Below, one piece after another: positions 12,341 through 21,676 of a stretch of DNA of 64,000 bases. The position numbers and the translations under genes are program-made. Source of the stretch: Streptomyces sp. CA-278952 (GTDB taxonomy: Bacteria > Actinomycetota > Actinomycetes > Streptomycetales > Streptomycetaceae); NCBI RefSeq assembly GCF_028747205.1, contig NZ_CP112880.1, positions 4,712,001 through 4,776,000 on the forward strand, in the 5' to 3' direction. How positions within the stretch are numbered: position 1 is the stretch's first letter; each line of letters opens with the position of its first letter. The notes beneath the pieces are model-generated. The model was not told the origin of the DNA, did not search any database, and was given only the letters and a program-made list of their open reading frames with translations.

Positions 12341-12523
12341 CGTGCGGCTCCTCCGGTCGGGATCGGGGCCCGCGGGAGTGCGAGCCGATGTGCTGCGAAC
12401 GTACCGGGGAGCGGGGCGCGGTGAGCCCGAAGCGCCCCGCCCGGGCAAGGCGCCTTGCGACTGTCCGGGCGACCCTCTCACCCTCTCACCCACCAAAACG
12501 GGTTCAATCGACCCAAATAGTCC

Positions 12524-12538
12524 TACGGTGGCCGGGTG
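12524..12538 (+). promoter_or_regulatory. Probable leaderless start: -10 box TACGGT before GTG
   Basis: TACGGT (12524-12529) lies exactly 6 bases before the GTG at 12536, the spacing expected when transcription starts at the first base of the start codon. The same TACGGT-N6-GTG arrangement occurs before sepX (31591-31605). No clear -35 element was found. Confidence 0.5.
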
Positions 12539-13642
12539 ACCGAGCCCTCAGAAGCCACCGCAGCAGCCGAGCCCGACGTCTCAGGCCCCTCGGCCACGTC
12601 TTCCTCCGCTACCGGCCCCCGGTCCGTCACCACCCGGGCGACGCTCGTCGGCGTGGTTGTCTCCGCCCTGCTGATCCTCGCGATCGTGCTGGGCAGCCGT
12701 ATGCTCCGCAACTTCGACTCGGCCCTCCTCCCTTATGCCGTGGCCACGGTCTTCCTCGCTTTCGGCGTCGCCTACCGGTACACCGTCTGGATCTCCGCCC
12801 CCGGTGCCCGGCGCCTCTTCAAACAGGGCTGGCGCAGCCTCTTCTCCCTGGACAACTTCCGCGGGGCCCCTACCGCCCTGCCGAAGATGATCGCCACCTA
12901 TCTGGGCTTCCAGAAATTCCTCGGCGCCCGCTCCCACGCCCGCTGGGCCGCCCACCAGCTGATCTTCTGGGGCTGCATCCTCGCCGCCCTGATCACCTTC
13001 CCGCTCACCTGGGGCTGGTTCACCTTCACTTCCGGCAGCGGGTCGGGACCCGGCTACGAGATGCGGATCTGGGGCTTCAAGATCCTCGGATTCGACTCGC
13101 TCAACGTCCTCGGCTGGCTGATGTTCCACGGCCTGGACATCGCCGCCGTCCTCGTCATCCCCGGCGCCTCGTACTTCCTGTGGCGCCGTATGAAGGACCG
13201 TGGCGCCGCCACCGGCCAGCGCTTCGCCTACGACCTGGTGCCGCTGATCGCGCTCATCGTCATCTCCGTCACGGGGCTGCTGCTCACCTTCTCCTCGATC
13301 TTCCTGCACGGCGGCGGCTACCAGTTCCTCGCGATCCTGCACATGGCGTCGGTCGTCTTCACCCTCATCTACATCCCGTTCGGCAAGTTCTTCCACATCG
13401 TCCAGCGACCGGCCGCGGTCGGCATGCAGCTGTTCAAGTACACCGGCCGCAAGGACGACGAGGTGTTCGCCTGCCGCCGCTGCGAGGAGCCCATCGACAC
13501 CGGCCCCTATGTCGAGAACCTGCGCGGCACCATGCGCGACCTCCGGCTCGACTTCGACTCCTGGGCCGAGTACTGCCCGCGCTGCAAGCGGGTGCTGCGC
13601 GGCAGCGCCTATCTCTCCCATGTGAAGAAGGGCTTCAAGTGA
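12536..13642 (+). CDS. NarI-like cytochrome b membrane subunit of Mo oxidoreductase
   Basis: The 368-residue integral membrane protein has about six TM helices, with candidate heme-ligating His residues in AAHQLIFWGC, MFHGLDIAAV, and the FLHGGGYQF and FHIVQRP segments. The region LAILHMASVVFTLIYIPFGK resembles NarI/HdrE-type cytochrome b. A soluble C-terminal part has two CxxC pairs (FACRRC and YCPRC), so it probably binds zinc or a cluster. It is first of five tightly coupled genes; its stop overlaps the GTG of the catalytic subunit. Inferred role: electron transfer between the quinone pool and the Fe-S subunits. Confidence 0.78.
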   Translation: MTEPSEATAAAEPDVSGPSATSSSATGPRSVTTRATLVGVVVSALLILAIVLGSRMLRNFDSALLPYAVATVFLAFGVAYRYTVWISAPGARRLFKQGWRSLFSLDNFRGAPTALPKMIATYLGFQKFLGARSHARWAAHQLIFWGCILAALITFPLTWGWFTFTSGSGSGPGYEMRIWGFKILGFDSLNVLGWLMFHGLDIAAVLVIPGASYFLWRRMKDRGAATGQRFAYDLVPLIALIVISVTGLLLTFSSIFLHGGGYQFLAILHMASVVFTLIYIPFGKFFHIVQRPAAVGMQLFKYTGRKDDEVFACRRCEEPIDTGPYVENLRGTMRDLRLDFDSWAEYCPRCKRVLRGSAYLSHVKKGFK

Positions 13643-15966
13643 CCGCGGATCCGCGAGCTGCTGCCGACCGCCGCACCTTCATCCCCCTGGACCCCTCCCT
13701 CGCCCCTCCCGGCACCCGCGCCTTCCGGGACGCGGGCGGCATCCCGGCCGACCAGTGGCACGCCGACCAGAACGGCGAGACGCTCGTGCCGACCCACTGC
13801 TGCTTCTGCGGCGTCCAGTGCGGGATGTATCTGCGTGTGGACCGCGGCGGCAAGGTCTTCGGCGTCGAACCCCGCAACCACGACATCAACCGGATGCGGC
13901 TCTGCCCCAAGGGCATCAACGCCTACCAGCAGGTCAACCACCCCGACCGGCTGACCGCCCCGCTGATGCGCCGCTCCCGTGACGAGGAGTTCCGCGAGGT
14001 CTCCTGGGAGGAGGCGCTCGACTTCACCGTCTCCGAGATCAAGCGCATCCAGCAGACCCACGGCAACGACGCCTTCGGGCTCCTCGGCGGGGCCAGCCTG
14101 TTCTCCGAGAAGACCTATCTGGTGGGCAAGTTCGGCCGGGTCGCGCTCAAGACCCGGCACGTCGACTACAACGGGCGCCTCTGCATGGTCAGCGCCGCGG
14201 GCGCCAACAAGCTCGCCTTCGGCATCGACCGGGCCGGCAACCCCTTCTCCGACATCCTGCTCACCGACTGCCTGCTCATCGCGGGCTCCAACGTCGGTGA
14301 GTGCTTCCCCGTGATGACCCAGTACGTCTGGGGGGCCCGGGACCGAGGGGCCAGCCTCATCGTCATCGACCCGCGCGAGACCGCCATCGCCCGGACCGCC
14401 GACATCCACGTCGCCCTCAAGCCCGGCACCGACGCCGCCTTCTTCACCTCCGTCCTGCACGTCGTCATCGAGGAAGGGCTCACCGACGAGAACTACCTCG
14501 CCGCCCACGCCACCGGCTGGGAGGAGGTCAAGGCCAAGGCCGCCGAATACCCACCCTCCCGTGCCGCCGCGATCTGCGGGATCCCCGCCGAGCAGATCGT
14601 CCAGGTCGCCCGGACCTTCGCCCGCGCGCCCAAGGCCATGGCCTGGCACGCCCGGGGCATCGAGCACCACTCGCAGGGCGTCGAGAACTGCCTCACCGTG
14701 ATCAACCTCTGCACCGCCACCGGCCACATCGGCAAGCCCGGCGCCGGCTACGGCACCATCACCGGCCAGGGCAACGGGCAGGGCGGCCGCGAGCACGGCC
14801 AGAAGTCCGACCTCCTCCCCGGCGGACGCTCGATCATGAACGAGGAGCACCGCCGCCAGATCTGCGAGATCTGGGGCATCGAGGAGTCCGAACTCCCGCC
14901 CGCCGGGACCTCCATGATGGAAATGGTCTGGCAGATGCAGCGCCGCGAGATCCGCGGCCTCATCGGCATCTGCAACAACCCCTTCGTCTCCCTGCCCAAC
15001 TACCGGGTGGTCAAGGAGGGGTACGACACCACCGAGTTCCACGCGCAATTCGACTTCTTCCTCTCCGAGACCGCGGCCAACGCCCACGTGGTCTTCCCCG
15101 TCACCACCTGGGCCGAGGACGAAGGGGTGATGGCCAACGCGGAAGCCCGCGTGGTCAAGCACAACAAGGCCCAGGACCCGCCGCCCGGCGTCCGCACCGA
15201 CACCTGGGCGATGTGCGAACTCGCCCGACGGCTCGGCGTCGGCGACAAATTCGACTTCCCCGACTCCCGGTCGGTCTTCGACGAGCTGCGCGTCGCCTCC
15301 GCCGGCACCGTCAACGACTACTACGGCATCACCTACGAACGCCTGGAGGAGACCGGCGGCATCGCCTGGCCCTGCCCCACCACCGACCATCCCGGCACCC
15401 CGCGCCTTTTCGAGGACGGGAAGACCTACCACCCCGACGGCAAGATCCACCTCCAGGTCGTCGAATGGCACCCGCCGATGGACCCGTACGACGACGAGCA
15501 CCCCATGTCGCTCACCACCGGCCGCACCGTCGCCCACTTCCTCTCCGGCAACCAGACCCGCAGGCTCGGCGCCCTCGTCGAACAGACCCCGCGCCCGTGG
15601 GCCGAGGTCCACCCCTCGCACGGCTTCCGCAACGGTGAGCCGGTCCGTGTCGTCACCCGGCGCGGCAGCGAGGTCTTCCCCGCCCTGGTCACCGAGGCGA
15701 TCCGCCCCGACACCGTGTTCATCCCCTACCACTGGCCCGTCCCCACCGCGGCCAACGCCCTCACCATCGACGCCCTCGACCCCCGGTCCAAGATCCCCGA
15801 GTACAAGGTGTGCGCCTGCCGCATCGAGCACGCCGAGCGGATCGACGAGGTCCCCGCCCCGCCGGTCGCTCCCGGCCATGTCGCCTACCCGGAGACCCAG
15901 GTCTCCCGTACCGACCCGCTGCCTCCCACGGCCCCCCAGGGCCGTGGCACCTCGGAGAGGAGCTGA
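13639..15966 (+). CDS. Molybdopterin oxidoreductase catalytic subunit (NasA/NapA-like)
   Basis: The 775-residue DMSO-reductase-family protein binds one [4Fe-4S] cluster through HCCFCGVQC and a later LCPKG Cys. The bis-MGD region includes RLCMVSAAG, where Cys is the expected Mo ligand as in NapA/NasA, and GQGNGQGGREHG. The C-terminal molydopterin dinucleotide-binding domain is around LTTGRTVAHFLSGNQTRR. There is no Tat signal, so it is cytoplasmic. GTG at 13639 overlaps the upstream TGA (GTGA). The family reduces or oxidises nitrate, formate and other small substrates; the actual substrate is not evident. MoaC/MoaB genes lie 14 kb away. Confidence 0.88.
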   Translation: MTADPRAAADRRTFIPLDPSLAPPGTRAFRDAGGIPADQWHADQNGETLVPTHCCFCGVQCGMYLRVDRGGKVFGVEPRNHDINRMRLCPKGINAYQQVNHPDRLTAPLMRRSRDEEFREVSWEEALDFTVSEIKRIQQTHGNDAFGLLGGASLFSEKTYLVGKFGRVALKTRHVDYNGRLCMVSAAGANKLAFGIDRAGNPFSDILLTDCLLIAGSNVGECFPVMTQYVWGARDRGASLIVIDPRETAIARTADIHVALKPGTDAAFFTSVLHVVIEEGLTDENYLAAHATGWEEVKAKAAEYPPSRAAAICGIPAEQIVQVARTFARAPKAMAWHARGIEHHSQGVENCLTVINLCTATGHIGKPGAGYGTITGQGNGQGGREHGQKSDLLPGGRSIMNEEHRRQICEIWGIEESELPPAGTSMMEMVWQMQRREIRGLIGICNNPFVSLPNYRVVKEGYDTTEFHAQFDFFLSETAANAHVVFPVTTWAEDEGVMANAEARVVKHNKAQDPPPGVRTDTWAMCELARRLGVGDKFDFPDSRSVFDELRVASAGTVNDYYGITYERLEETGGIAWPCPTTDHPGTPRLFEDGKTYHPDGKIHLQVVEWHPPMDPYDDEHPMSLTTGRTVAHFLSGNQTRRLGALVEQTPRPWAEVHPSHGFRNGEPVRVVTRRGSEVFPALVTEAIRPDTVFIPYHWPVPTAANALTIDALDPRSKIPEYKVCACRIEHAERIDEVPAPPVAPGHVAYPETQVSRTDPLPPTAPQGRGTSERS

Positions 15967-15972
15967 AGCCCC

Positions 15973-16575
15973 ATGATGGGCAGAACGATCTTCATCGACC
16001 CGGGGCGCTGCATCGGCTGCCAGGCCTGTGTCTCCGCCTGCCGTGAGTGCGACTCGCACCGCGGCACATCGATGATCCACCTCGACTACACCGACGAGGG
16101 TCACTCCGTCGCCTCCCTTCCCACCGTCTGCATGCACTGCGAGGACCCGGTCGCCCCGTGCGCCGAGGTCTGTCCCGCCGACGCGATCCTGGTGACCGCG
16201 GACGGCGTGGTGCAGCAGGCCGACACCACCCGCTGCATCGGCTGCTCCAACTGCGTCAACGCCTGTCCCTTCGGCGTACCGAAGATCGACCTCCAGGCGA
16301 AACTGCAGATGAAGTGCAACCTCTGCTACGACCGCACCGCCTACGGTCTCGCCCCGATGTGCGCCACCGTCTGCCCGACCGGCGCTCTCTTCTACGGAAC
16401 CGTCGAGGAGCTCCAGGCGGAGCGCCCCGGCGTCCAGGTCGCCGACACCTTCGTCTTCGGCGAGACCGAGGTCCGCACCGGTGTGGCCATGGTCGTCCCC
16501 GCCGAACGGGTCCAGTGGCCGGTACCCGGCGGGCTTCCCGTCGTCGAGATCAATGGGAAGGACGTCCGCCGATGA
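15973..16575 (+). CDS. Four-cluster ferredoxin subunit (DmsB/NrfC-like)
   Basis: The 200-residue protein has four Cys clusters: CIGCQACVSAC, CMHCEDPVAPCAEVC, CIGCSNCVNAC and CNLC with CATVC. This is the pattern of electron-transfer subunits carrying four [4Fe-4S] centres in DMSO-reductase-family complexes. It follows the catalytic gene by 6 bp and overlaps the Rieske gene (ATGA). It should pass electrons between the catalytic and cytochrome b subunits. There is no signal peptide, consistent with a cytoplasmic complex. Confidence 0.88.
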   Translation: MMGRTIFIDPGRCIGCQACVSACRECDSHRGTSMIHLDYTDEGHSVASLPTVCMHCEDPVAPCAEVCPADAILVTADGVVQQADTTRCIGCSNCVNACPFGVPKIDLQAKLQMKCNLCYDRTAYGLAPMCATVCPTGALFYGTVEELQAERPGVQVADTFVFGETEVRTGVAMVVPAERVQWPVPGGLPVVEINGKDVRR

Positions 16576-17279
16576 GCGTTACCGATCAGCAGCCGAGTGC
16601 GGAACACTCCGCCGGGGGAGACCCGCGCGAGGCCCTCCAGGACCGGATCGCCGCCGACTCCCTCACCACCCGGCGCGACTACCTCCGGATTGTCACCACC
16701 GTCTCCGGCGGCCTCGCCGTCGGCGGCATCGGGGTGGCCGCGGGCATGCTGCACCGCCACAGCGACGGCGAGGAGGGCAAGGCCCCCGAGGCGAAGCGCA
16801 TCGCCGGGCGACTCCTGCCCGGCGAGTCGATCGTCTTCCGCTACCCGGGCGAGGAGGACCGGGCCGTCGCCGTCCGCCTCGACGACGGCACCCTCGTCGG
16901 CTACTCCGCCGTCTGCACCCACCTCGCCTGCGCCGTGCTCTGGCGCAAGGACCGGGGCAGCGAGGGCGAGCTGTACTGCCCGTGCCACGAAGGAGTCTTC
17001 GACGCCCGGTCCGGCGAGGTCACGGCGGGGCCGCCGCCGCGCGGGCTGCCCAAGGTCGTGGTCATCGAGCAGGACGACGGCAGTGTCTGGGCGGTGGGGA
17101 CCACCCGCTCCGGCGAGAGCATCGAGGGAGGTCTCTGCCGGCAGCTCGGCGGCGACCGCCCCGACCTCGCCTCCCGTATCGGTTGCCCCGACATCGGCGG
17201 CGGAGCCGAATCCCCGCCCCGGCCCGCCGGTGAGCGCGAGCCCTCCGCCACCGCCGAGAATCCGGGCGGGCGGGCATGA
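16572..17279 (+). CDS. Rieske [2Fe-2S] protein with Tat-type signal anchor
   Basis: The 235-residue protein has an N-terminal TTRRDYLRIVTT twin-arginine motif followed by a hydrophobic Gly/Val/Ala segment, then a Rieske fold with cluster-binding boxes CTHLAC and CPCHEGVF. The C-terminal tail is rich in Gly/Pro. The ATG overlaps the stop of the ferredoxin gene, and its own stop overlaps the next ATG. A Rieske protein inside a Mo-oxidoreductase operon is uncommon; the twin-Arg anchor suggests the cluster faces outside while the catalytic subunit stays in the cytoplasm. Confidence 0.88.
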   Translation: MSVTDQQPSAEHSAGGDPREALQDRIAADSLTTRRDYLRIVTTVSGGLAVGGIGVAAGMLHRHSDGEEGKAPEAKRIAGRLLPGESIVFRYPGEEDRAVAVRLDDGTLVGYSAVCTHLACAVLWRKDRGSEGELYCPCHEGVFDARSGEVTAGPPPRGLPKVVVIEQDDGSVWAVGTTRSGESIEGGLCRQLGGDRPDLASRIGCPDIGGGAESPPRPAGEREPSATAENPGGRA

Positions 17280-17671
17280 GCGACACCCCGCACCCCGAGC
17301 AGCCGCTGCCGCCCCCCGGCACCCACTACCCCACGTACCACCCCGGCAGCGCCGACCCCGGACTGAACCGGCCCGTCCACGAGCGGTATCCGCAGATCCG
17401 CCCCACCAGCGGATACGGGGACCCCCGCGTCCGGCACACAGGCCCCGGGCCCGGAGCGGGCACCGACCAGGACCCCGAGCGCTCCTCGAAGCTGACCGCC
17501 CGGCTCACCCTGGCCATGACCGTCGTCATCGGCCAGCTCTGGGGACTGACAGTCCTGATCGACGAGTGGATGGAGGGCAACACCGGCACGGCCTGGTGGG
17601 GGGCCGGCTTCCTCTGCCTGTCGTTCCTCGTCGTGCTGGGCCTGTGGCTCATCGACCCGAAGGACCGCTGA
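17276..17671 (+). CDS. Small two-TM membrane protein of the Mo operon
   Basis: The 131-residue protein has a Pro/Gly/Tyr-rich hydrophilic first half and two predicted TM helices, LTLAMTVVIGQLWGLTVLI and GAGFLCLSFLVVLGLWLI, ending in DPKDR. I do not recognise a named family. Its ATG overlaps the Rieske stop, so it is translationally coupled and is probably an assembly or anchoring subunit of the same complex. Confidence 0.8.
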   Translation: MSDTPHPEQPLPPPGTHYPTYHPGSADPGLNRPVHERYPQIRPTSGYGDPRVRHTGPGPGAGTDQDPERSSKLTARLTLAMTVVIGQLWGLTVLIDEWMEGNTGTAWWGAGFLCLSFLVVLGLWLIDPKDR

Positions 17672-18976: not shown

Positions 18977-19861
18977 CTACGGCAGGGCGATTCCCGTGTC
19001 GATCCCGTCCAGGGCGTGGGCGCATGTGCAGGTGCGGTTCTCGCTCCTCGGCAGCCCGGCCACCGCGTCGAACAGCACCGAGCGCAGCCGGTCCACGTTG
19101 GCCGCGAACACCTGGAGCACCTCCTCGTGCGAGACGCCCTCGCCCGCCTCGGCGCCCGCGTCCAGGTCGGTCACCAGGGTCATCGTCGTGTAGCAGAGGC
19201 CCAGCTCGCGGGCGAGGACCGCTTCGGGGTGTCCGGTCATACCCACGACCGACCAGCCCATCGCCGCGTGCCAACGCGATTCCGCACGGGTCGAGAAGCG
19301 GGGACCTTCGACGACCACCAGGGTGCCGCCGTCCACCGGCTCCCAGTCGCGTCCGCGAGCCGCGCCGAGTGCGGCTTTGCGCCCCTCGGGGCAGTACGGG
19401 TCGGCGAAGCCCAGGTGGACGACGTTCGGCACGGTTCCGTCGGCCCGGGTCTCACCGTCGTAGAAGGTCTGCACGCGGGCCTTGGTGCGGTCCACCAGCT
19501 GGTCGGGGACGAGCAGGGTGCCCGGCCCGTACTCCGGTCGCAGCCCGCCCACCGCGCAGGGGCCGAGCACCTGCCGGACCCCGACGGAGCGCAGCGCCCA
19601 CAGGTTGGCCCGGTAGTTGATGCGGTGCGGTGGCAGGTGGTGGCCGCGTCCGTGGCGGGGCAGGAAGGCCACCCGCCGGCCGCCGAGCTCGCCGAGGAAG
19701 ACCGAGTCGCTCGGCTTCCCGTAAGGGGTGTCCACGGAGACCTCGGTGACGTCCTCCAGGAAGGAGTAGAAGCCCGAGCCGCCGATGACACCGATCTCCG
19801 CGGAACTCCCGGTACCCGCCGTACCCGTACCGGAGCCCGTTTCGTCAAGTGCGTTCGCCAT
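18977..19861 (-). CDS. S-methyl-5'-thioadenosine phosphorylase (MtaP/PNP family)
   Basis: The 294-residue protein has AEIGVIGGSGFYSFLEDV at the start of the domain, FLPRHGRGHHLPPHRINYRAN, and ESRWHAAMGWSVVGMTGHPEAVLARELGLCY, which includes the family's MT/N-x-PE-type signature. The enzyme phosphorolyses methylthioadenosine to adenine and methylthioribose-1-phosphate for methionine salvage. ATG at 19861 is used, with only a weak ribosome-binding site (GGTGACC). It lies downstream of the FmdB-like gene but is separated from it by a strong hairpin, so it is probably transcribed independently. Confidence 0.88.
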   Translation of the reverse strand: MANALDETGSGTGTAGTGSSAEIGVIGGSGFYSFLEDVTEVSVDTPYGKPSDSVFLGELGGRRVAFLPRHGRGHHLPPHRINYRANLWALRSVGVRQVLGPCAVGGLRPEYGPGTLLVPDQLVDRTKARVQTFYDGETRADGTVPNVVHLGFADPYCPEGRKAALGAARGRDWEPVDGGTLVVVEGPRFSTRAESRWHAAMGWSVVGMTGHPEAVLARELGLCYTTMTLVTDLDAGAEAGEGVSHEEVLQVFAANVDRLRSVLFDAVAGLPRSENRTCTCAHALDGIDTGIALP

Positions 19862-19903
19862 GCGGTCACCGTATCCGGAGGAGCGATTCACGGGACGAAC
19901 GCC

Positions 19904-19935
19904 CGGACCCCGCCGAGTGGCCTCGGCGGGGTCCG
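19904..19935 (-). terminator. Hairpin terminator of the FmdB-like gene
   Basis: A perfect 14-bp stem, CGGACCCCGCCGAG (19904-19917) with CTCGGCGGGGTCCG (19922-19935), encloses a 4-base loop, 29 bases beyond the FmdB-like stop. Confidence 0.75.
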
Positions 19936-19963: not shown

Positions 19964-20329
19964 TCAGGCGGCCGACGTACCGCTCGACGAGGCCGGCGCG
20001 GAGGCCGACGACGAGGAGGAGCCGGACGAAGAGGACGATGACGACGATGCGCTCGCCTTCGTGTCCGAACCCGACGACGAGGACGAGGACGAGGCCGACG
20101 TCGAGTCGGACGACTTCGCTGCCGTCGTCGCCGGCGCGCTGCTCGACGAGGAGCCACGGCTGTCGTTCCGGTAGAAACCGGAACCCTTGAAGACGATGCC
20201 GACCGCGGAGAACACCTTCTTGAGGCGTCCGTCGCAGCTCGGGCACACGGTCAGGGCATCATCGGTGAACTTCTGCACCGCCTCGAGGCCTTCGCCGCAC
20301 GCGGTGCACTGGTACTGATAGGTCGGCAC
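19964..20329 (-). CDS. FmdB-family zinc-ribbon protein, Ruc-like chaperone candidate
   Basis: The 121-residue protein has a FmdB zinc ribbon with Cys8, Cys11, Cys29 and Cys32 (YQCTACGE and TVCPSCDG), followed by KVFSAVGIVFKGSGFYRND. A long Ser/Ala-rich disordered tail begins near residue 58. Zinc ribbon plus disordered tail is the architecture of Ruc (M. tuberculosis Rv0991c), a redox-regulated chaperone in the HrcA regulon (recollection). GTG at 20329 has AGGAGGA 4 bases upstream. A CIRCE element lies immediately before it, so heat-shock control by HrcA is expected. Confidence 0.82.
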   Translation of the reverse strand: MPTYQYQCTACGEGLEAVQKFTDDALTVCPSCDGRLKKVFSAVGIVFKGSGFYRNDSRGSSSSSAPATTAAKSSDSTSASSSSSSSGSDTKASASSSSSSSSGSSSSSASAPASSSGTSAA

Positions 20330-20338
20330 TTGCTCCTC

Positions 20339-20365
20339 CTGGCACTCTCACTCAATGAGTGCTAA
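20339..20365 (-). promoter_or_regulatory. CIRCE element (HrcA operator)
   Basis: The right arm GAGTGCTAA (20357-20365) matches the CIRCE consensus 9/9. The left arm CTGGCACTC (20339-20347) matches TTAGCACTC at 7/9. The spacer is exactly 9 bases. It lies 10-36 bases upstream of the FmdB-like start codon, directly beside its ribosome-binding site. Confidence 0.85.
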
Positions 20366-20395
20366 CGACGGTCCATACTGACGTATTCCGTTGAA

Positions 20396-21676
20396 TCAGT
20401 CCACCGTGACCGGCTCGCGGTGACCGATCGCACGTGCGGCGGTGCGTCCCGGGGACCTCGGAGTCAGCCGCGAACGCAGGGCCAGCAGGGTCATCAGCGC
20501 CAGCACGGTTCCGGCCAGAGGCACCAGGAAACCGGTGCTCGCGCCATGGGCGTCGGCGAGTTGCCCCGCCACGGTCACGGCGGCCGCCTGTCCGAGCGCC
20601 ACGGCGCCCGTCAGCCAGGTGAAGGCCTCGGTGCGGGCGGTGGCGGGCACCAGCGCGTCGACCAGGGTGTAGCCGCTGATCAGCGCCGGAGCGATGCAGA
20701 GGCCGACCAGCAGGCCGAGCCCGGCAAGCAGCGGCACCGAGTGAACGGCCCACAGGCCGGACGCGGTCAGCGTCAGCGCCACGTACCCGACGATCAGCCG
20801 GCGGCGCGGGCTGCTCTTCCAGGCGATGGCGCCGCAGGCGATGCCGGCCAGCATGTTGCCCGCCGCGAAGACCCCGTAGAGGACGCCGTTCACTCCGGGG
20901 TGGCCGATCTCCTCGGAGAACGCGGTCAGCGAGACCTGCATCCCGCCGAAGACCGCGCCGATGCCCAGGAAGGCGACGGCCAGGACGCGTACACCCGGCA
21001 CCGAGAGCGCCGAGGCGTGCGGTTCGGCCGCGGTGGCCGCGTTGCGAGGGGCGGGCTGGGTGGCGCGCTGCGCGGCGAAGAAGAGGCCGCCGACCAGCGT
21101 CAGGGCGGCTTCCGTGATCAGTCCGGCCGCCGGGTGCACGCCGGTGCAGAGCGCGGTGGCGATCACCGGGCCGAGGACGAACGTGAACTCGTCCGTCACC
21201 GACTCGAACGCGGCCGCGGTGGACATCAGCGGAGAGGCGGGCCGGTCGGGGGTCGCCCCCAGCATCGCCGCCCAGCGGGCTCGCACCATGGGGCCGACCT
21301 GCGGGATCGAGGCGCCGGTCGGCACGGCGGCGACGAACAGCGCCCACAGGGGTGCGTCCGCCAGCGCCAGTACGGTCAGGGCGCTCACGGAGACGGCGTG
21401 GAGAAGCACCCCGGGCAGCAGGACGGCGCGCTGACCGAAGCGGTCGGCGAGCTTGCCGCTCTGCGGGGCGAACAGCGCCATGGAGACGCCGGAGACCGCC
21501 GCGACGGCGCCCGCGCTGCCGTACGAGCCGGTCGTGTGCTGCACGAGGAGGACGATGCCGATGGTGAGCATCGCGAAGGGCTGCCGTGCGGCGAAGCCCG
21601 GGAGGAGGAAGGTCCACACACCGGGGGTACGCAGGAGTTGCCCGTAGCCGGGGCGGTCGGAGACCGTGGTCGCCAC
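20396..21676 (-). CDS. 12-TM MFS transporter
   Basis: The 426-residue transporter has motif A-like sequence APQSGKLADRFGQRAVLLPG between TM2 and TM3 and repeated Ala/Gly/Leu-rich helices throughout. A related half-repeat occurs around VNGVLYGVFAAGNMLAGIAC. GTG at 21676 follows AAGGA. The ligand is unknown and no regulator is adjacent. It is separated from the upstream antiporter by 333 bp containing a terminator. Confidence 0.82.
   Translation of the reverse strand: MATTVSDRPGYGQLLRTPGVWTFLLPGFAARQPFAMLTIGIVLLVQHTTGSYGSAGAVAAVSGVSMALFAPQSGKLADRFGQRAVLLPGVLLHAVSVSALTVLALADAPLWALFVAAVPTGASIPQVGPMVRARWAAMLGATPDRPASPLMSTAAAFESVTDEFTFVLGPVIATALCTGVHPAAGLITEAALTLVGGLFFAAQRATQPAPRNAATAAEPHASALSVPGVRVLAVAFLGIGAVFGGMQVSLTAFSEEIGHPGVNGVLYGVFAAGNMLAGIACGAIAWKSSPRRRLIVGYVALTLTASGLWAVHSVPLLAGLGLLVGLCIAPALISGYTLVDALVPATARTEAFTWLTGAVALGQAAAVTVAGQLADAHGASTGFLVPLAGTVLALMTLLALRSRLTPRSPGRTAARAIGHREPVTVD

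Follow-up and report, generated by a model that had tools for sequence, protein, structure and literature searches.

Directly upstream of a small FmdB/Ruc-family gene of Streptomyces sp. CA-278952 lies an inverted repeat. A preliminary description of this DNA read the repeat as a CIRCE operator, the binding site of HrcA, and the gene as the streptomycete Ruc, a member of the heat-shock regulon. This raises two questions: which regulators act on the gene, and is its product a chaperone? We addressed them within the 64-kb stretch of DNA that contains the locus (the window), in the whole genome, and in related genomes.

The point of comparison is Mycobacterium tuberculosis. There, HrcA represses four genes including ruc, a precedent that the preliminary description had named and that is in print, and SigH activates ruc (PMC7448276). 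The HrcA and SigH sites overlap in the M. tuberculosis ruc promoter, and both inputs have been demonstrated (PMC7448276, PMC4803200). Among the SigH targets tabulated in PMC4803200, ruc is entered with a 40-fold change. In M. tuberculosis Ruc, cysteine pairs at positions 8/11 and 29/32 hold zinc; the oxidized protein, with its zinc released, holds unfolded protein, depends on the tail for this, and cooperates with DnaK (PMC7448276).

The ruc gene and its product

The gene, its neighbors, and a hairpin that follows it are located on the minus strand.

19964..20329, minus strand: ruc, FmdB/Ruc-family gene with a GTG start, encoding 121 aa (from ORF, Pfam, NCBIfam and composition)
19905..19934, minus strand: 13-bp GC-rich hairpin without a T run, possible terminator between ruc and the MTAP gene (z = -5.21 in a 75-nt stretch)
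18977..19891, minus strand: S-methyl-5'-thioadenosine phosphorylase (MTAP), downstream neighbor (NF005876, 456.9 bits)
20396..21676, minus strand: MFS transporter, upstream neighbor (from ORF; profile matches below curated cut-offs only)

The ruc product contains four Cys residues (C8, C11, C29 and C32, in two CxxC motifs) in an N-terminal zinc ribbon. The tail comprises 63 residues, including 36 Ser and 12 Ala, and ends in Ala-Ala; its disorder was judged from composition alone. The product matched Zn_ribbon_8 (PF09723, E = 7.6e-15, 55.1 bits against a cut-off of 34.4) and the FmdB family zinc ribbon (TIGR02605, E = 4.4e-20, 71.5 bits against a cut-off of 31.3), and searches of Pfam and NCBIfam gave no match over the curated cut-off beyond the zinc ribbon. 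A search of solved structures gave a zinc-finger chain as its top match (E = 0.00037), and the matches listed included none named FmdB or Ruc. The N-terminal domain is 56-83% identical to those of 17 other members of the class, with all four Cys kept in 18/18 sequences. Cysteine positions, profile matches and tail composition thus agree with the four-Cys zinc ribbon and Ser/Ala-rich tail of the preliminary description.

Comparison with M. tuberculosis Ruc (Rv0991c) shows the same four Cys positions (residues 8, 11, 29 and 32) and, as in Streptomyces, a disordered hydrophilic tail (PMC7448276). The four-Cys zinc switch and the logic of an oxidation-activated holdase also resemble Hsp33, as described in PMC7448276, whereas Ruc combines a small ribbon with a long disordered tail.

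The genomic context differs. Streptomyces ruc is located between the MFS gene and the MTAP gene and is followed by the hairpin, whereas M. tuberculosis ruc is in an operon with rv0990c (PMC8557902). Streptomyces ruc is possibly monocistronic, because the hairpin at 19905..19934 may be a terminator. Read-through from ruc into the MTAP gene is less likely as the main transcript form, since the strong hairpin argues against it, although a terminator scan did not call this hairpin. Elsewhere in the window, ORFs resembling a molybdopterin oxidoreductase, a multi-cluster ferredoxin and a Rieske protein lie in a row at 12388-17671, as recognized by eye from their translations.

The operator and promoter upstream of ruc

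The region between the MFS gene and ruc contains four elements, which partly overlap.

20385..20389, minus strand: GGAAT, -35 element of a SigR-type promoter (from letters, published consensus and conservation)
20364..20366, minus strand: GTT, -10 element of this promoter, separated from GGAAT by 18 bases and with TT as the first two bases of CIRCE
20339..20365, minus strand: CIRCE operator, predicted HrcA site (16/18 arm bases; from pattern matches and conservation)
20335..20340, minus strand: AGGAGG, ribosome-binding site, assigned by sequence; its leading AG doubles as the last two bases of CIRCE

The letters of 20339-20365 are CTGGCACTC-TCACTCAAT-GAGTGCTAA (arm, spacer, arm). They confirm the CIRCE element as first noted, with a left arm at 7/9, a right arm at 9/9 and a spacer of 9 bases, and dinucleotide shuffles of the window gave no CIRCE match at ≤3 mismatches (0/100). 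In the window itself, the site is the sole match at ≤3 mismatches. It ends 9 bases before the GTG start codon of ruc and has the design of an HrcA/CIRCE operator, with two 9-base arms and a 9-base spacer 5' of the gene.

The preliminary description overlooked a second element. GGAAT-N18-GTT, beginning 6 bases past the MFS stop codon, is identical to the consensus of the SigR thiol-stress regulon of Streptomyces coelicolor, given as GGAATN18GTT by PMC2375139 citing Paget et al., and its GTT overlaps CIRCE by two bases. The genome encodes a SigR-type sigma factor (TIGR02947, 358.9 bits against a curated cut-off of 251.55), and both sequence features of a SigR-regulon member, the promoter and the sigma factor, are therefore present. 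At the sequence level, the ruc promoter also contains overlapping HrcA and SigR sites, a feature taken from M. tuberculosis and not one required family-wide; in the Rv0991c promoter, the HrcA site is overlapped by a site for SigH, the SigR ortholog.

CIRCE sites across the genome

The genome (8.2 Mb, one contig) was searched for CIRCE with a strict pattern and with a pattern allowing R/Y, using the reversed pattern as a control. The strict pattern returned 4 sites at ≤3 mismatches and the R/Y pattern 6 sites at ≤2 mismatches, with 0 in the reversed control in each case. Of the six sites, two precede groES-groEL1, two precede groEL2, one precedes hrcA-dnaJ and one precedes ruc. The groEL genes were identified by Cpn60 matches, and GroES of groES-groEL1 is a 102-aa ORF recognized by eye. 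HrcA itself is encoded in the genome (PF01628, 202.7 bits), and its gene has its own CIRCE, with dnaJ directly after it. The CIRCE site before ruc is real, and it is rare in the genome.

The predicted HrcA regulon is made up of four operons, the counterparts of the four given for M. tuberculosis in PMC8557902. The preliminary description had named the groE operons as HrcA/CIRCE targets in Streptomyces; sites are present here before groES-groEL1 and groEL2, and the hrcA-dnaJ member had been omitted. The groES-groEL1, groEL2 and hrcA-dnaJ sites share the operator design and spacing seen at ruc. In contrast to these operons, ruc has a single site plus a SigR-type promoter. Matches to the composite GGAAT-N18-GTT-CIRCE away from ruc were all at 3 mismatches, among the matches listed, and two or three of these mismatches fall in GGAAT (rows checked by eye).

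Our preferred reading, with a probability of roughly 0.8, is that streptomycete ruc is under dual stress control, negative by HrcA and positive by SigR, and encodes a chaperone. An alternative that we regard as unlikely accepts the HrcA/SigR regulon but takes the product to be no chaperone, but another zinc-ribbon factor such as a transcription regulator. The zinc-ribbon family matched here bears the name FmdB, which was coined for a putative regulator, and FmdB proteins are widespread; to our knowledge, a chaperone role has been tested in M. tuberculosis Ruc alone. Three points argue against this alternative: the co-regulation of ruc, by sequence, with three chaperone operons; the four Cys and Ser-rich tail, as in the Ruc that was tested (PMC7448276); and the Pfam and NCBIfam searches, in which the zinc ribbon is all that scores over the curated cut-off.

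Occurrence of the operator and promoter in Streptomycetaceae

A ruc ortholog is present in 149/150 Streptomyces genomes, with G031 as the exception. G031 also gave no match to MTAP, in a search run without a positive control; the lack of matches to both genes suggests a block deletion or an assembly gap, which look alike in these data.

CIRCE-like sites were found in 150/150 Streptomyces genomes, at 5-7 per strand compared with 0-2 per strand for the reversed control. The composite GGAAT-N18-GTT-CIRCE occurred within 3 mismatches, anywhere in the genome, in 147/150, and the reversed control gave 0 in each. Because this tally includes groE matches at 3 mismatches, the ruc locus was examined genome by genome. 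The composite beside ruc was examined singly in 137/150 genomes; the 137 comprise 105 genomes identified by composite match, 9 and 20 by locus reading, 2 with a 19-base spacer (G091 and G139), and G031. In the 105 genomes with a composite match beside ruc, the match was at 0 mismatches in 100, at 1 in 2, at 2 in 1 and at 3 in 2. The exact composite was present beside ruc in 129/137 genomes examined, a spacer of 19 in 3/137 (G038 among them by appearance), and a weakened GGAAT in 4/137 (G021, G026, G127 and G142).

In named Streptomycetaceae (L162-L241), the CIRCE arms were found at 2 mismatches in 80/80 loci, a set that overlaps the unnamed Streptomyces genomes and in which, as there, related genomes give non-independent counts. 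The SigR-type promoter adjoins CIRCE in 77/80 of these loci (76 with a spacer of 18 and one with 19), and the remaining 3/80 lack GGAAT/C at the expected place. Identity to the majority base over the 80 loci is 100% for the CIRCE arms and GTT, 98.5% for GGAAT, and 88-89% for the two spacers.

The CIRCE spacer of Streptomycetaceae has a feature of its own. An extra GAGTG, present in 69/80 loci, could pair with the left arm to form a nested inverted repeat; it occurs in 0/90 CIRCE-bearing loci of other families.

Occurrence in other families

A Ruc-type protein was found in 291/296 genomes and 103/105 genera of the class. From the 291 matching genomes, 115 loci of families other than Streptomycetaceae were drawn, about one per genus plus some extra, representing 101 genera and 40 families (L062 and L124, with unparsed start codons, were excluded). 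Loci of the class were read over 200 upstream bases, and loci outside the class over 250. CIRCE was present within 4 mismatches before ruc in 90/115 loci, corresponding to 78/101 genera and 33/40 families, at distances of 36 to 126 bases from the start codon. Shuffle controls of the other-family loci reached 4 mismatches in 0/2300 cases. When 152 loci were shuffled 50 times each, no value fell below 4 mismatches, which was reached at two loci (L075 and L122). The preliminary description had made its reading depend on conservation of the CIRCE arms, and they are conserved in 80/80 Streptomycetaceae loci and 90/115 other loci of the class.

CIRCE was absent (at least 5 mismatches) at 25/115 loci. 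A lack of HrcA was considered as the cause and rejected, with an HrcA match in 45/45 genomes tested, including all 25 without CIRCE; in 3 of these 25, the match covers only the last part of the profile. Since the 25 loci come from HrcA-bearing genomes, ruc does not need HrcA everywhere, and these genomes have kept the regulator but either lost the operator or never acquired it. Three loci of family f21 (L057, L134 and L151, in genomes G428, G338 and G169) belong to a small-genome lineage that has ruc without CIRCE and a partial HrcA match. Outside the class, 40 loci were chosen among the matches listed, and CIRCE was found before ruc in 4 of the 36 that could be parsed (L271, L274, L278 and L281 were unparsed).

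A SigR-type promoter was detected near CIRCE in 18/90 other-family CIRCE loci, compared with 0.31 expected, and the other 72/90 lack it. Nine of the 18 belong to f4, a mycobacterial-looking family in which GTT touches or overlaps CIRCE in 8/10 loci, and nine are scattered over five other families. The distribution points to an early origin of HrcA control of ruc within the class, and suggests that the SigR/SigH-type overlap is near-universal in Streptomyces, common in f4 and rarer elsewhere. The best-supported history is one in which the SigR/SigH-type promoter would have joined an old HrcA-ruc link in Streptomycetaceae, f4 and a small number of other groups.

These data also bear on whether the inverted repeat might work chiefly at the mRNA level, through a 5' hairpin affecting stability or ribosome access, with ruc not regulated by HrcA. 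The repeat falls within the probable leader and adjoins the ribosome site, and the extra GAGTG could pair with the left arm in 69/80 Streptomycetaceae loci. We nevertheless consider this very improbable: it is the letters of CIRCE, not merely their pairing, that are kept in the 90/115 other loci of the class, nearly identical letters occur before groE and hrcA, and HrcA repression of ruc has been measured in M. tuberculosis (PMC7448276). Chance, or shared ancestry without function that would make CIRCE a by-product of relatedness, is hardly credible even though the Streptomyces loci are related and their counts not independent, given a site found in 78/101 genera and 33/40 families outside the home family at start distances varying from 36 to 126 bases, spacers that drift more than the arms (88-89% compared with 100%), and shuffles that reached 4 mismatches at two loci of the 152-locus set and never in 2300.

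Proposed control and function of Ruc

The identification of the gene as the streptomycete Ruc, part of the heat-shock regulon, is supported by the family match, the conservation of CIRCE and the sites at the chaperone operons, all of them sequence evidence. Under dual control by HrcA and SigR, ruc would be regulated as follows. At rest, HrcA bound to CIRCE would cover the -10 element together with the probable start of transcription and the margin of the ribosome site, and so block transcription. On heating, HrcA would let go of CIRCE and ruc would be relieved. Thiol oxidation in general frees SigR from its anti-sigma factor, and at ruc the freed SigR would start transcription from GGAAT-N18-GTT. 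Both inputs would meet on overlapping DNA and are probably required together for full output. As a homolog of M. tuberculosis Ruc, the oxidized product may lose its zinc, become an ATP-independent holdase and hand its clients to DnaK. A chaperone active only when oxidized would be made when heat or oxidation strikes, and the logic of the control thus fits the product.

For M. tuberculosis, control of ruc by HrcA and SigH has been published before, and streptomycete ruc would follow this known kind of control. Our literature search found no paper joining HrcA, CIRCE and FmdB. The accessible portions of the literature on Rv0991c and Streptomyces contain no mention of a streptomycete ortholog, and those of the SigR-regulon literature, from a search that did not extend to published target lists, contain nothing on streptomycete ruc; the same is true of a paper on Corynebacterium glutamicum SigH from the literature on SigR together with HrcA. 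Relative to the literature searched, the present analysis adds the distribution of the operator across the class, the SigR-type overlap in Streptomyces and the conservation of the Ala end.

The C-terminal end of Ruc

Ruc ends in Ala-Ala in 78/80 Streptomycetaceae, with protein lengths ranging from 96 to 136 aa and a varied tail sequence. The same end was found in 35/35 proteins of a second set, whose species overlap with the 80. The codons of the two terminal Ala vary synonymously (GCC, GCG, GCT and GCA), which points to selection on the protein. Of 39 genes predicted in the window with a crude gene caller, only 1 has an Ala-Ala end.

For comparison, 69 full-length Ruc proteins from 66 other genera were examined, these being the proteins for which the whole gene sequence was retrieved. 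Ala is the last residue in 36, compared with 10.5 expected from the same tails and a maximum of 21 in 2000 draws. An AA or VA end is present in 32/69, and others, for example in family f4, have a run of Ala followed by Ser. Outside the class (L242-L281), 15/36 Ruc/FmdB proteins have Ala as the last residue, in 10 cases as part of Lys-Ser-Ala, though their tails differ. Compared with the Ala-Ala of Streptomyces, M. tuberculosis Ruc has an Ala-rich end, readable from a printed primer in PMC7448276; that paper describes Ruc C-terminal domains as being without significant similarity. An Ala-Ala end amid an otherwise variable tail looks to be a new feature.

The tmRNA tag ends in Ala-Ala. By this analogy, we tentatively suggest, as a possibility that we would not yet favor, that the end of the Ruc tail (Ala-Ala in Streptomycetaceae, and in many other families either Ala-Ala or Val-Ala or a run of Ala) may serve as a C-degron for Clp protease. 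If this is true, Ruc would be a disposable, oxidation-armed holdase, which is cleared after stress or drags irreparable clients into the protease, and proteolysis would add a third level of regulation to those exerted by HrcA and SigR. The conserved Ala end offers a concrete and cheap handle on the removal of a disordered chaperone. With streptomycete Ruc, the oxidation-switched chaperone would be extended from a slow-growing pathogen to a genus that is harmless and genetically tractable, together with a ready prediction of its regulation.
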